Shown here: piece by piece, positions 53,480 through 61,614 of the stretch
Position numbering within the stretch: position 1 is the first letter of the stretch
Layout: every line of letters starts with the position of its first letter
Source: Flavobacteriales bacterium
GTDB lineage: Bacteria; Bacteroidota; Bacteroidia; Flavobacteriales; UBA7312
Length of the DNA: 64,000 nt
Assembly: GCA_016779995.1 (NCBI GenBank)
Contig: JADHMO010000009.1
Coordinates: forward strand, 1 to 64,000
Direction: 5' to 3'
Made by a program: the position numbers and the translations under genes
The notes under the pieces: generated by a model
Databases searched by the model: none
What the model saw: only the letters and a program-made list of their open reading frames with translations
What the model was told of the DNA's origin: nothing

Positions 53480-54985
53480 ATGAAGCAATTATTATTTCTA
53501 TTGGTCACTTTAATCAGCTTAAACTCACAAGCTCAAACATTATGCGAACAAACCTACACAACAGGCAACTATTATGTGTTTGAAGTAGCTATTCCAACAA
53601 CAGGAAATGGATTGCCTAACATGGCACCATTATATGCTTACACCACTACCCTATTAGACACTTGGGAAGACAGTTGTTTTGGTGGCCCTTGTACACATAT
53701 TGTATACAACGAGTATAATGAAGATTCAATCACGACATGCATATCTTATACTTTAACAGACTCATTCTATAATGTGGACACATTGGAATGTTGCATTACT
53801 CAATACTGGGACGGCAATGTATGGTCAATAATTTCAGATACTGAAATGAATTGTGAAAATCTAGAAATTATGGTAACGTCATCATCGGAATCAACTATTA
53901 ATATGACTTCTAACGCTGAGTTTTGCATGGATCAGAGTTTGGGGCCATTTACTTACTCGTGGTCAGCATACAGCACCGATGGTGATTTTATTGTATGGTC
54001 TTCTGAAGAAGATTTGAACACCTACTTAGGCAATAACATTTCACTCACTGATTCAATTGATGTTTGCTTTGGATTGACTGCTGCCAATGGTGATGTTTGC
54101 GAAGTATGTGATACACTTTTTTATAATGGACCTATTTATGAATGGATAAGCATAAATACTGAAAATCAAGCAATTGATTTAGATTGTGAAGATATAGAAC
54201 TCAATATTTCTTCTTCTAATGATTATCAAATTGTTATGAACTCCAATGCAGATGATACAGAAGGCGTATTAGGATATTACTGGATAGTCTATGATTTTTT
54301 CAACAACATTATTTCCTCTAGCTCATCTATCGTTCTAGACCAAAACATGTTTTATGACTCCTTAAATGTATGTATTTCAATTGTTGATGAATATGATGAA
54401 AACTGCGATGTATGTGAAACCATATATTGGTCTGGAGAAAATTGGTCTATGGATACAAATGATATCTATGATGTAACGGATTATTTGTACACAATTTGTG
54501 ACACCTTAGAAGTAATATCTGAAGTTTCAACTGAAGAGTGGGTAATACTTTCAACAAACTTATTTTTTCTAGACTATTTAAACTCAAACAATCTATTAGA
54601 TGAAATTTCTTTTAACTGGCAATCATGGGGTAACGATTTAGTATCAGAATCCTCATCAATTATTACATTTTACGCACCAAATAGTGAAGATGATTATTAT
54701 TTCATGTTAGAAATTTTATATGATGAAAATGGTGAAAATTCAACGATTCTCTGTCAATACCCATTTCTAATAAATTGGAATCCAAACAACTACATGTGGC
54801 AACCTTTGAGCATTCAAATGAACCAACTACCAACTTCTATTGACTCATACCATAATGAATTGCAAAACAAGAAGTTAGTGAAAATAACTGACGTTTTTGG
54901 AAGAGAAGTTAAAGAAGAAAAGAACAACTTACTTTTCTACATTTATGAAGATGGGAGCGTTAACAAAACTTATTTTATAAAATAA
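53480..54985 (+). CDS. Secreted protein of unknown function with a short GRE-type tail
   Basis: This 501-residue protein has a signal peptide (MKQLLFLLVTLISLNSQAQ). Three or four related Cys-containing blocks follow (for example CEDIELNISSSNDYQIVMN and CENLEIMVTSSSESTINMT, each followed by YYWIVYDFF/YSWSAYST and a VC-x-VC-x-T motif). The protein is very acidic and poor in Lys before the end. The last 37 residues (KLVKITDVFGREVKEE... FYIYEDGSV) look like the second half of a T9SS type A signal without YPNP. No family is recognised. It overlaps the next gene by one base. Confidence 0.75.
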   Translation: MKQLLFLLVTLISLNSQAQTLCEQTYTTGNYYVFEVAIPTTGNGLPNMAPLYAYTTTLLDTWEDSCFGGPCTHIVYNEYNEDSITTCISYTLTDSFYNVDTLECCITQYWDGNVWSIISDTEMNCENLEIMVTSSSESTINMTSNAEFCMDQSLGPFTYSWSAYSTDGDFIVWSSEEDLNTYLGNNISLTDSIDVCFGLTAANGDVCEVCDTLFYNGPIYEWISINTENQAIDLDCEDIELNISSSNDYQIVMNSNADDTEGVLGYYWIVYDFFNNIISSSSSIVLDQNMFYDSLNVCISIVDEYDENCDVCETIYWSGENWSMDTNDIYDVTDYLYTICDTLEVISEVSTEEWVILSTNLFFLDYLNSNNLLDEISFNWQSWGNDLVSESSSIITFYAPNSEDDYYFMLEILYDENGENSTILCQYPFLINWNPNNYMWQPLSIQMNQLPTSIDSYHNELQNKKLVKITDVFGREVKEEKNNLLFYIYEDGSVNKTYFIK

Positions 54986-55554
54986 TGAATAGACAATTTA
55001 TACTCTACATTATACTAGGACTTTTATTCGCCCAAAAGGTCTATTCACAGGTCAACCTAAGTGTTCATAGTGTAATTCACTCTGACACACTAGATGCCAA
55101 TGTTCCTTTTTATATCGACTTTGAACTTACTAACAATGATACTGTTACATTCAATGAAATTGTAAAAATTAATTTAAGTTTTGCCTTACCAAACGACACC
55201 AGCTTTATTGAAGAACATATCATACTTGGAATTAATCAATACCAAGGAATAGATGTAGGAGAAAGTTTATCTTTCAGCATTGAGTTAATAGAGCCTCAAG
55301 ACATGTATCAACAATCAGGTGATAATTTAGTCGTTATTTGGCCCTCATCAGTCGCACCACTTACAACCGACACAAGCATTACACCTGTTTTTATTAAGGA
55401 AACCACTAGCAACATAAAAGATTACTTTATTTCAAAAGAAAACAATGCAAAAGCAGTGGACTTATTAGGAAGAGAATATGACTCTATACATGCTATTCCT
55501 AGAGGAACTATATATATCAAAAAGGGAAAGAAACACATCAAAAGTCTAAGGTAA
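54985..55554 (+). CDS. Small exported protein with a variant GRE tail
   Basis: This 189-residue protein has a signal peptide (MNRQFILYIILGLLFAQ). An Ig-like beta domain resembling CARDB follows (about 25-130; DFELTNNDTVTFNEIVKINL). The basic end reads KAVDLLGREYDSIHAIPRG. The tail seems a variant of those in the genes at 53480 and 61804. It is translated from an ATG overlapping the previous stop, so the two products probably work together. Function unknown. Confidence 0.75.
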   Translation: MNRQFILYIILGLLFAQKVYSQVNLSVHSVIHSDTLDANVPFYIDFELTNNDTVTFNEIVKINLSFALPNDTSFIEEHIILGINQYQGIDVGESLSFSIELIEPQDMYQQSGDNLVVIWPSSVAPLTTDTSITPVFIKETTSNIKDYFISKENNAKAVDLLGREYDSIHAIPRGTIYIKKGKKHIKSLR

Positions 55555-57696: not shown

Positions 57697-60600
57697 ATGA
57701 CAAGACAATTTATACTAACTCAATTTATACTGCTTTTTCTATTTAGTTTTTCTTGGGCTCAAGTGGTTGTGCCAATTACAAACTACTCTGTAAATAACAG
57801 TGGTCAAGCTCTTCTTTCAATAGAGGCTCAGGAAGGTAAATATTATGTCCTAACTTCTCAGCATAGTCCTACATTTGAATGGGCTACCTCAGTGAATATT
57901 GGCGTAAACGGAACTATGATTATCTCTGATCAAGGCGGCTCCTATCCTCTTGAAAATTATACCATTACCGAATATGATATTGCTAACCCTGGTGATATAG
58001 ATGGAGATGGCATCGATGATATGACAGAGTTAAATAATATGCCTACGGATGCACCCATAAATTTTGCTCAAGCCATTGATTTTGAAGATGGTGCAACTTC
58101 TATTCCTGATGCTGAAACTTTCATGCAATTAGCAACTGTAAATAATGTAGGATGGGCTCCTTTTCTTGACGGACAACTTTATGTAAAATTTGGAATATTG
58201 GATAGAGACAGTCCAGAACCAAAGGTATATTTCATCAATAGCAACACCTATACTATTCATGGGGCATTTTTTGCTGGTATAGGTGCTTCAGTAACTGGAG
58301 ATGATGGTTCAGGAGAAATTGTATTTAATCCAAACAGTGGAGTCAATGGTACATATTCTTTTAACTTCTCATTCGGCAATACCTATGAGTTTGAAGATGC
58401 TCAAAGGACATACGAATTGTTAGTGGCCAATATGCCATTTCTTCAGAACAATATGAATCACTTTATTAGTGAAAACAACGAAAACTATTATTTAACAAAT
58501 TATGCTGATGAATATGAAGATTCAAGAATTAATGTAGTACTAGAATATGATGTTTTTGGAAACATCAATTATATTCCCTTTCATGAAGCAGAAGGCTATG
58601 GTTACTTCAAACAAATGAGTCTTGACGAAACTCCTGGCTCAAGAGATATCGTACTTTACGATGCTCTACCCAATTCTTTACCAAGAGTTGGTGGCATTAT
58701 TACTTCAGTCATACAAACACCACTATCGCATGTCAACTTAAGAGCCATACAAGATAATGTTCCTAACGCCTACATTCAAGACCCATTATCTATTGACTCC
58801 ATTGCTAACTTATTGAACAACTATGTCTATTATAAGGCTGAAAATGAAACCTTCCAATTTAGAGAAGCCACACTTGAGGAGGTTAATAATTGGTACGATG
58901 CCTTAAGACCTACTGAGCCTCAAATACCTGCGCGGGACCTTAGTATAACAGAAATAATGCCTCTAGATGACATAGAATTTGATATGTCAACCGCCTTTGG
59001 TGCAAAATGCTCAAATGTAGCTACAATGCGATCGTTTGGATTGCCCGAAGGAACCATCCCCGATGGTTTTGGTATTCCATTTTACTTTTATGATGAATTC
59101 ATGCAATACAACAACTTCTATCTGGAAGCTCAAGTCATGATAGATAATCCTGCATTTCAAAACGATATCAATTTCCGTATAGATCGTTTAAAAATGTTCC
59201 GTGACGACATAAAAGATGCGCCAATGCCACAATGGATGATGGATCAGCTTCAAGCTATGCACGATGACTTCCCCGCAGGAACTAAAGTAAGATGTAGATC
59301 CAGTACTAACAATGAAGATTTACCAGGGTTTAGTGGTGCTGGTTTATATACTTCAAAAACTCAACACCTAGATGAAGGGCATATTTCGAAATCTATCAAA
59401 CAAGTCTATGCTAGTATGTGGAACTTTAGAGCTTATGAAGAACGTGACTTCTATCGAGTAGACCATTTTATGGCAGCTATGGGAGTACTGTGTCACCCCA
59501 ATTTTGAAGAAGAAAAATCAAATGGTGTTGGAATTAGTATAGACCCTATTTACGAAACAGAGAACACCTTCTATTTAAACACACAACTTGGAGAGTCATT
59601 GATTACAAACCCAGATCCAAATTCTTTACCAGAGGAAATATTACTATATGAAGATCCTGAAGAAGCAGCTGGCTATTTGGTACTACAACTGTCTAACCTT
59701 GTTGATCAAGGACAACTAGTGATGGACCAAAGCTATCTCGATCAAATGAGGGATTACTTATCTGTTATCCATGATGAATTTGCTATTTTGTACGATGTGG
59801 TGGGTATTGAAGGCTTTGGTATGGACATAGAATACAAGGTAACAGCTGATGATCAACTAGTCATTAAACAAGCTAGACCATGGGTGTCATTTTGGGCAGA
59901 TATTAAAGCAGACAATGATTTAGAATTCACAGAGTTTACAAGTCCAACATCGTCTTCCGACTTAGGTAGTAATGAAATTATAAGTGCAGTAGTTTCTAAT
60001 ACTGGACTAAACCCTATGAGCGATTTTACCTTAACATTATTAGTAGATAATCAAGAAATTGAAACTTTAACAATCTCTGAAACTATTGAGCCATTTTCTA
60101 ATGCAGAATTTCAATTCGAAACTCTACAAGATTTCTTAGAAGTTGGAGAATATTATCTTACAGGAATTGTAAGCGATACTGATGATGAATATGGAAATAA
60201 TGACACCTTAAGGTATACGCTCAATAAGATTCATCAACTAGATGCAGGAGTAGTTCTTGGTACTCTTAATCAAAATTGCAACAACGATGTTGAAGCAACA
60301 ATTATCGTAACTAATAATGGAGAAAGTACCATAAATAGTGTTCAATTTGAAATTATTATTAATGATGAAAGCGCAGGATATTTCAATGAGCAAGTTGAAA
60401 TTTCATCACTAACAGAGGAGAAAATATCTGTCATTGTTGATGCTAACTTTCAAGCTAATGACAACGAAGTCGAAGTAAGCTTTATCTCCATAAATGGTCA
60501 AATAGATCAGGATGCATCCAACGATTATGCTGTTTCCATTTTAGATGTACAATCAACCTATGATTATGTTACTTTGATAATTAACGGTGATTCATACCCG

Positions 60601-61614
60601 TATGAGATATCTTGGGCAATTATTGACTTCAACGATAACACTATTGCTAGTGGAGAACTTGGTAATGGAGTTAATGATATAGAAGAAGAAATTTGTTTAG
60701 ACTATACCTCTTGCTACTCATTATTCGTTTACGATTCTTATGGAGATGGAATTTTAGGTGATGGTGATTTTTCGGTTGTTAATTCTTTAGGACAAACCAT
60801 TGTTTACAATGACGGTAACTTTGGTAGTCAAGCTATTGAAATAGTCTGTCCTGACGGATCTGCTTGTGCAATAAATGCAGATGTAGTCGTGACTCATTCT
60901 ACAAACAATGATGGGATAATTTCAATTTGGACCTCATCATCAGAACAGTACAATTATAGCATAGATGGTGGCTTAAATTTTTCAACAGAAAATACATTTT
61001 CAGGACTAACACCAGGCGAATACAATGTTTTTGTTCAAGATGAAAGTGGATTATGCAACTATGAAGAAACGGTAATTGTTGATGAATGTATCTTAACCGC
61101 AGTTGATATTTCAGCTACAAATGTTACTTCTGCTACGATTGCAAATGGTTCTATAATTATTACTCCAACTTCTGGATTAAGCCCATATTTGTACAGTGTT
61201 GATAATGGACAAAATTTCCAAGAAGACAACGAGTTCTATAACTTGGCAGTAGGTAATTATAATGTAGTAGTTCAAGATGCTTCTGGCATTTGCGAATATG
61301 AAGTCAATGTTCCTGTTGAAGTTGAAGGAGGAACTGGAATAAAAGAAAATAGTAGTGATACAGATGATATCATTATTTATCCTAATCCTACCAAAGATCA
61401 AATATACATAGAGCTTACTTCAAATTCTAATTGGTCGGAAGAAATCATTATTGAAGTATTTGACAATGCCGGAAGATTAGTTAGTGTTGCTACATCATTA
61501 GACAATAACAAGACTAAAACAATGATCTCTTTAAATGGATTAGAATCAGGAATATATTACGTTAAATGCCATAACAAAACATTTAACAATTATTTCAAAG
61601 TTGTTAAACTCTAA
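57697..61614 (+). CDS. Secreted T9SS protein with permuted PEP-synthase/dikinase-like domains
   Basis: This 1305-residue protein has a signal peptide (about 1-22, FSWAQ). A Ca-binding-like DIDGDGIDDMTE lies near 105. A phosphohistidine-type domain has His345 in TPLSHVNLRA. After it comes a PPDK_N/ATP-grasp-like domain (about 430-735), with TMRSFGLPEG, VRCRSSTNNEDLPGFSG (about 531-547) and the late VIKQARPWVSFW, which resembles the PEP-synthase VTRPET end. Two CARDB-like beta domains follow (about 740-950). Next is a domain with LFVYDSYGDGILGDG, then SprB-like repeats (about 1065-1215), and a type A T9SS signal (IYPNPTKDQIYIEL to the end). The order His domain then ATP domain matches glucan water dikinases rather than PEP synthase. 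Activity outside the cell is unproven. Confidence 0.85.
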   Translation: MTRQFILTQFILLFLFSFSWAQVVVPITNYSVNNSGQALLSIEAQEGKYYVLTSQHSPTFEWATSVNIGVNGTMIISDQGGSYPLENYTITEYDIANPGDIDGDGIDDMTELNNMPTDAPINFAQAIDFEDGATSIPDAETFMQLATVNNVGWAPFLDGQLYVKFGILDRDSPEPKVYFINSNTYTIHGAFFAGIGASVTGDDGSGEIVFNPNSGVNGTYSFNFSFGNTYEFEDAQRTYELLVANMPFLQNNMNHFISENNENYYLTNYADEYEDSRINVVLEYDVFGNINYIPFHEAEGYGYFKQMSLDETPGSRDIVLYDALPNSLPRVGGIITSVIQTPLSHVNLRAIQDNVPNAYIQDPLSIDSIANLLNNYVYYKAENETFQFREATLEEVNNWYDALRPTEPQIPARDLSITEIMPLDDIEFDMSTAFGAKCSNVATMRSFGLPEGTIPDGFGIPFYFYDEFMQYNNFYLEAQVMIDNPAFQNDINFRIDRLKMFRDDIKDAPMPQWMMDQLQAMHDDFPAGTKVRCRSSTNNEDLPGFSGAGLYTSKTQHLDEGHISKSIKQVYASMWNFRAYEERDFYRVDHFMAAMGVLCHPNFEEEKSNGVGISIDPIYETENTFYLNTQLGESLITNPDPNSLPEEILLYEDPEEAAGYLVLQLSNLVDQGQLVMDQSYLDQMRDYLSVIHDEFAILYDVVGIEGFGMDIEYKVTADDQLVIKQARPWVSFWADIKADNDLEFTEFTSPTSSSDLGSNEIISAVVSNTGLNPMSDFTLTLLVDNQEIETLTISETIEPFSNAEFQFETLQDFLEVGEYYLTGIVSDTDDEYGNNDTLRYTLNKIHQLDAGVVLGTLNQNCNNDVEATIIVTNNGESTINSVQFEIIINDESAGYFNEQVEISSLTEEKISVIVDANFQANDNEVEVSFISINGQIDQDASNDYAVSILDVQSTYDYVTLIINGDSYPYEISWAIIDFNDNTIASGELGNGVNDIEEEICLDYTSCYSLFVYDSYGDGILGDGDFSVVNSLGQTIVYNDGNFGSQAIEIVCPDGSACAINADVVVTHSTNNDGIISIWTSSSEQYNYSIDGGLNFSTENTFSGLTPGEYNVFVQDESGLCNYEETVIVDECILTAVDISATNVTSATIANGSIIITPTSGLSPYLYSVDNGQNFQEDNEFYNLAVGNYNVVVQDASGICEYEVNVPVEVEGGTGIKENSSDTDDIIIYPNPTKDQIYIELTSNSNWSEEIIIEVFDNAGRLVSVATSLDNNKTKTMISLNGLESGIYYVKCHNKTFNNYFKVVKL

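Follow-up and report, generated by a model that had tools for sequence, protein, structure and literature searches.

A predicted exported phosphohistidine dikinase encoded beside an exported histidine phosphatase in Flavobacteriales

A 64,000-nucleotide stretch of a Flavobacteriales genome (assembly GCA_016779995.1, contig JADHMO010000009.1, positions 1 to 64,000), hereafter called the window, carries on its forward strand an open reading frame for a protein that combines a phosphohistidine-type segment, an ATP-grasp domain and the signals for export by the type IX secretion system (T9SS). The frame runs from 57697 to 61614, is open over 1305 codons and lies next to a gene for an exported histidine phosphatase. 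The best explanation, with a probability of about 0.5, is that the protein is an exported phosphohistidine dikinase that would use external ATP to phosphorylate an extracytoplasmic acceptor, a step that the phosphatase may reverse or reset. The domains, the key residues, the purifying selection and the gene linkage on which this reading builds were established by computation. The host genome measures 1.96 Mb, is 97% complete and was assigned to its order by its named close relatives.

The ATP-grasp identity is far beyond chance, both by sequence and by structural model. PPDK_N (PF01326) spans residues 434-729 (E 9.3e-21, 74.9 bits against a cut-off of 27), and the domain matches phosphoenolpyruvate (PEP) synthases in sequence. 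An AlphaFold model of residues 23-740, for which 54 aligned sequences served as input, superposes on rifampin phosphotransferase (RPH, 5hv1) with Z 29.2 over 292 residues at a root-mean-square deviation of 2.5, and on PEP synthase (2ols) with Z 28.7 over 290 residues, while other ATP-grasp enzymes reach about 11; RPH, PEP synthase and HpeI rank as the best structural neighbours. In an alignment of 54 sequences that are 55-85% identical to that of the window, Lys437, Arg534 (the first residue of RSSTNNEDLPGFSG), Glu712, Gln725 and Arg727 are unchanged throughout, and residue 710 is Asp in 52 and Glu in two. The equivalence of these positions to Lys22, the RSS Arg, Glu, Gln and Arg of pyruvate phosphate dikinase (PPDK) and RPH was taken from PEP synthase alignments, not from a superposed active site. 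In RPH, all activity requires Lys22 and the second half-reaction requires Arg117 (PMC4844700). Fold and phosphate-contacting residues together place the protein, by sequence and model, in the PPDK/PEP synthase-type superfamily of phosphohistidine dikinases. The original prediction, made from the sequence alone, had described an ATP-binding-like segment here and had asked whether its key residues persist across homologues; both points are upheld.

Ahead of this domain lies the putative catalytic His345 (codon 58729-58731, within QTPLSHVNLRAI), in the motif SHVNLRA (residues 344-350). It is invariant in 54/54 sequences, as are TPLSH and the surrounding residues, and it precedes the ATP-grasp domain in all of the kept copies in which both motifs were readable. 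The GWD1_pHisD family (PF22973) recurs in 20 of 27 relatives, in every case sub-threshold (best E 0.0018), and the only other families, two in number, hit one member each. When whole genomes were scanned, the exported gene was the best or sole GWD1_pHisD match in six of the seven genomes that gave one, always below the cut-off. Profile comparison connects the His segment to two other exported families, a short one (E 2e-14) and a third one, whose members have about 975 residues (E 2e-7), and the third family in turn to canonical PPDK/PEP synthase (E 9e-8), with His aligned on His each time; an unrelated control gave 0.085 over 14 columns. These links suggest a swivel-type fold for residues 291-405. 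The His-first, ATP-grasp-second order that had been claimed, as in glucan water dikinases (GWD) and not as in PEP synthase or PPDK, is borne out by the position of His345 before residues 434-729.

The signals for export are found at both ends of the protein. A signal peptide is evident by inspection at the N-terminus, MTRQFILTQFILLFLFSFSWAQ, and at the C-terminus Por_Secre_tail (PF18962) matches residues 1227-1299 (49.8 bits against a cut-off of 27) and TIGR04183 scores 42.6 bits against 23. The genome encodes SprA (2605 bits, cut-off 200) and 69 T9SS tails over the cut-off, so the dikinase-like protein is one of many T9SS cargo proteins there. With a tail over the cut-off, a signal peptide and a T9SS-bearing genome, the protein can be classed as type A cargo, and its earlier description as secreted holds.

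The family occurs widely among Flavobacteriales and Saprospiraceae. Scanning of genome contigs yielded at least 508 relatives; the 80 retained belong to Flavobacteriales, Saprospiraceae and Chitinophagales. Pairwise identity averages 0.77 in the His part and 0.76 in the ATP part, as against 0.59 and 0.62 in the parts before them, and mean identity to the window's protein is 81-82% in the catalytic part, as against 31-50% in the spacer that follows it. In comparisons with the three nearest relatives, nonsynonymous divergence (dN) over residues 291-740 is about 0.04-0.05 and synonymous divergence (dS) about 1.7-2.2, with a dN of 0.17-0.24 in the tail. The resulting dN/dS, some 0.02-0.03 for the catalytic part as against some 0.1-0.2 for the tail, is approximate with dS near saturation. 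Because the catalytic residues are invariant and dN/dS is low, the exported dikinase is very probably active as an enzyme.

The adjacent phosphatase, which the original prediction did not mention, lies upstream, its stop codon 28 bp from the dikinase start. It matches PF00300 with 45 bits (cut-off 21.7); R40, H41, R63, R86 and H129 are invariant in 30 relatives; and its model (predicted local distance difference test score, pLDDT, 88) superposes on SixA (1ujb) with Z 17.4, tied with other branch-1 enzymes. By the PF00300 match and the RH...R...H set in its sequence, the partner belongs to branch 1 of the histidine phosphatase superfamily. A simple pattern marks 15 of its relatives as potential lipoproteins; to the eye, at least one of these calls (L046) is wrong, and other relatives begin as ordinary secreted proteins do.

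Of 81 loci, 42 have the phosphatase next to the dikinase: in 39 it lies upstream in the same orientation, and in three, which are rearranged, it lies downstream and convergent. The next most frequent neighbour family occurs at six. Adjacency is seen at about 43 of the 46 loci that could be assessed within one large lineage (L022-L065, L071, L092, L093 and the window), the 43rd case, L060, having been placed by genome search on the assumption that contig C9 is the contig of that locus. Among 396 Flavobacteriales genomes, the long dikinase occurs in nine, and the phosphatase subfamily (at least 231 bits) in seven of these nine and in none of the other 387, counts that are uncorrected for kinship; below 231 bits the next score is 131. 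One genome (66% complete, 4% contamination) holds two dikinase-phosphatase pairs, and both genes of the second pair resemble those of another family. Phosphatase and dikinase distances co-vary moderately (r 0.51, 38 pairs), as shared descent alone could explain. The pairing of exported dikinase and exported phosphatase in this lineage suggests a possible phosphorylation and dephosphorylation system outside the cytoplasm.

From these data we infer the chemical steps, the acceptor and the location of action of the dikinase as follows. The T9SS would export the protein, and its ATP-grasp domain would bind ATP available outside the cytoplasm. The beta-phosphate of ATP would move to His345, leaving AMP and inorganic phosphate, and the mobile His segment would then hand the phosphate to a hydroxyl of an acceptor outside the cell or on its surface, which the N-terminal and middle regions would hold, much as glucan water dikinases act on starch. 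Finally, the adjacent phosphatase would strip the phosphate from the acceptor or hydrolyse the phosphohistidine, so that the pair could be reversed or reset. Known targets of SixA are phosphohistidine carriers, among them NPr (PMC7948535, PMC6282199) and Ndk (PMC12934123), and because of this activity the partner could, by analogy, target the His as well as the product. Plant GWD and phosphoglucan water dikinase (PWD) place the beta-phosphate of ATP on glucans (PMC13011383) and are, by analogy, the closest functional model for the exported dikinase. A glycan acceptor is a guess from that analogy. Tentative likewise is the fuller proposal of an extracytoplasmic bacterial counterpart of the plant starch dikinase/phosphatase cycle, in which the exported dikinase would use external ATP to phosphorylate a polymer of the surface or the environment and an exported phosphatase inherited with it would remove the phosphate.

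Several observations weigh against an exported dikinase that phosphorylates an acceptor with external ATP. Free ATP is scarce outside cells. GWD1_pHisD scores only 13.7 bits with the window's protein (E 0.048-0.062, cut-off 27), and sub-threshold matches to it also occur in five of 14 control genomes. When profiles of the His segment and canonical PPDK/PEP synthase were compared directly, nothing was returned, so that the link runs only through the third exported family. In the structural model, pLDDT drops to about 30-40 around the His (residues 301-339 of the model, 323-361 of the protein), so that the swivel fold is putative. No Pfam match to a known carbohydrate-binding domain, CBM45 and CBM20 included, was found in the dikinase, although a divergent module is possible. 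Lastly, no phosphatase was seen beside the divergent Saprospiraceae and Chitinophagales copies, and in most of these genomes all histidine phosphatases are remoter ones; the phosphatase is therefore not an obligatory or general partner. The checks proposed with the original prediction were accordingly divided in outcome: PF01326 was found and PF00391 gave no match to the His segment, and the model gave the ATP-grasp fold and not the His swivel, for which the invariant motif and the profile chain still argue. The glucan-dikinase likeness likewise stands as to domain order, with no starch-binding domain found and a glucan acceptor a matter of analogy.

The scarcity of external ATP also bears on the alternatives. 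It had been argued that an exported dikinase would have no ATP outside the cell and might act before export or serve as a binding protein. The lack of ATP is no strict bar, given that dissolved ATP in seawater, used by marine microbes, is documented in PMC9298688, in a passage citing Azam and Hodson 1977. A non-catalytic exported protein, with the dikinase fold put to binding or adhesion, would be untroubled by that scarcity and would suit a surface cargo with immunoglobulin-like (Ig-like) and CARDB-like modules; it fits poorly with the invariance of His345 and the examined ATP-site residues (save position 710), with the contrast in dN/dS between catalytic part and tail, and with the conserved phosphatase next door, and is quite unlikely. 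Action on a substrate inside the cell, before export, would draw on a cytoplasm rich in ATP. It is very improbable indeed, because Sec and T9SS cargo crosses the inner membrane unfolded; further points against it are the signal peptide, the T9SS tail and the presence of the secretion system in this genome.

Seawater ATP could equally be scavenged: His345 would be phosphorylated by external ATP and the SixA-like phosphatase would hydrolyse the product, yielding AMP and two phosphates for uptake. The partner is nearest SixA in size and, in the tie noted above, in fold, and the phosphohistidine carriers on which SixA works are in keeping with such a role. This is nevertheless unlikely, since a single nucleotidase would suffice, the presence of large, conserved regions at the N-terminus and in the middle hints at an acceptor, the catalytic part is unchanged in relatives without an adjacent phosphatase, and the partner falls below the cut-off of the SixA equivalog TIGR00249 (21.6 of 74.5 bits). 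Use of another phosphate donor, or action on a small molecule (an antibiotic or a phenol, for example), whether periplasmic or at the surface, in the way that RPH and HpeHI work intracellularly, is improbable to a like degree. The ranking of RPH, PEP synthase and HpeI as top structural neighbours agrees with it, as does the diversity of small molecules that such dikinases take (PMC4844700, PMC12167813), but the order of RPH is reversed, with the ATP-grasp first and the His C-terminal, no RIF-binding-like domain was detected in the dikinase, and the complete ATP-site set makes ATP the simplest donor.

Comparison with known systems helps to place the exported dikinase that we favour. Like plant GWD and PWD, it has the His domain ahead of a C-terminally placed PPDK_N ATP-grasp, an LSH-type His motif (the plant motif as quoted in the original prediction), a recurrent weak GWD1_pHisD match and no PEP barrel; unlike them, it is exported through the T9SS, its N-terminal and middle regions match no family, its His-domain score is sub-threshold and glucan activity is an analogy. 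As far as domain order goes, its catalytic module may be called GWD-like, and filing it as a GWD was rejected on account of the missing starch-binding module and the His-domain score. With PEP synthase and PPDK it shares an ATP-grasp with identical phosphate-contacting residues, and its His segment is linked to theirs transitively. It differs from them in its reversed order, its export and the absence of a PEP/pyruvate TIM barrel (the C-terminal domain of PEP-utilisers), for which no Pfam match was found anywhere in the 1305 residues, as had been predicted; identity with either enzyme was rejected on the grounds of barrel and order. RPH and the HpeHI-type dikinases offer the closest solved ATP-grasp folds and a phosphohistidine relay to a non-pyruvate acceptor, a relay that the exported dikinase would share, but they have another domain order or a subunit split and are not exported. 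The partner, for its part, has the compact fold and catalytic set of SixA and the branch-1 phosphatases, from which it differs in being exported, in its RHSEK/RHAEK variant motif and in its equivalog score. The protein is, in sum, a member of the dikinase superfamily that is exported and, in one lineage, has an exported phosphatase as its partner.

The layout of the two genes is given in Table 1. For the N-terminal region (residues 23-137), no Pfam family hits more than a single member and PDB sequences give no match, and the middle region (residues 138-290) has neither a Pfam nor a PDB sequence match; for both, the Foldseek and VIA lists were dominated by ATP-grasp matches, so that their fold was barely probed. 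Part of the middle region is recognisable by alignment in the short relatives as well, and it may be the acceptor-binding or docking part.

Table 1. Predicted features of the dikinase-like protein and its neighbour, with positions in the window
Feature	Position	Strand	Basis
Exported histidine-phosphatase-superfamily protein (branch 1, compact, SixA-sized), 179 residues	57129..57668	+	PF00300, model
Signal peptide, residues 1-22 of dikinase-like protein	57697..57762	+	inspection of MTRQFILTQFILLFLFSFSWAQ
N-terminal beta-rich region, residues 23-137, with Asp-rich DIDGDGIDD loop	57763..58107	+	model pLDDT mostly about 90
Conserved middle region, residues 138-290 (VYFINSNTYTIHGAFF...TYELLVANMPFL)	58108..58566	+	alignments
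Phosphohistidine (swivel-type) segment, residues 291-405, putative catalytic His345	58567..58911	+	invariance, weak GWD1_pHisD, profile links
PPDK_N-type ATP-grasp domain, residues 416-740	58942..59916	+	PF01326, model, invariant residues
Divergent CARDB/Ig-like spacer, residues 741-1226	59917..61374	+	CARDB sub-threshold; low identity
T9SS type A sorting tail, residues 1227-1305, and stop codon	61375..61614	+	PF18962, TIGR04183

Variant forms occur among the relatives. A short exported form of about 630 residues (L016, L104-L110, L165-L175) stops directly after the ATP-grasp domain and is without a T9SS tail. The third family (L111-L120, L122), from Flavobacteriales and other Bacteroidota, is apparently exported, has the His before the ATP-grasp and carries the motifs NLVSHVQLLARNLGIPNA and RSDTNMEDL; a literature search found no description of it. 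In the close relative G002, one copy (L010, L022) has a single in-frame TAA just 5' of the phosphohistidine motif, the result of decay or of sequencing error, and one Chitinophagales contig (L091) carries a tandem pair of dikinase genes. Some longer relatives (C-terminal ends of L020 and L037) have, ahead of the sequence end, an INEINYRS-type stretch that by eye looks like the beginning of a lamin-tail domain. In the window's genome no canonical PEP-utiliser swivel domain scores over the cut-off, and therefore no PEP synthase, PPDK or enzyme I was detected there; each of the 14 control genomes has one. A search of a phage collection gave no match. Near the conserved gene pair and outside it, 53480-55554 encodes two small exported proteins without a convincing Pfam match.

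The PPDK-type dikinases in the literature found act inside cells, and no description of exported dikinases of this type was found in a search outside which most subscription journals lay. With the phosphatase next door, two proteins would suffice for a direct test of the idea. If true, it would mean that phosphate is transferred at the expense of ATP outside the cytoplasm, and that dissolved ATP has a non-nutritional use, in marine Bacteroidota.

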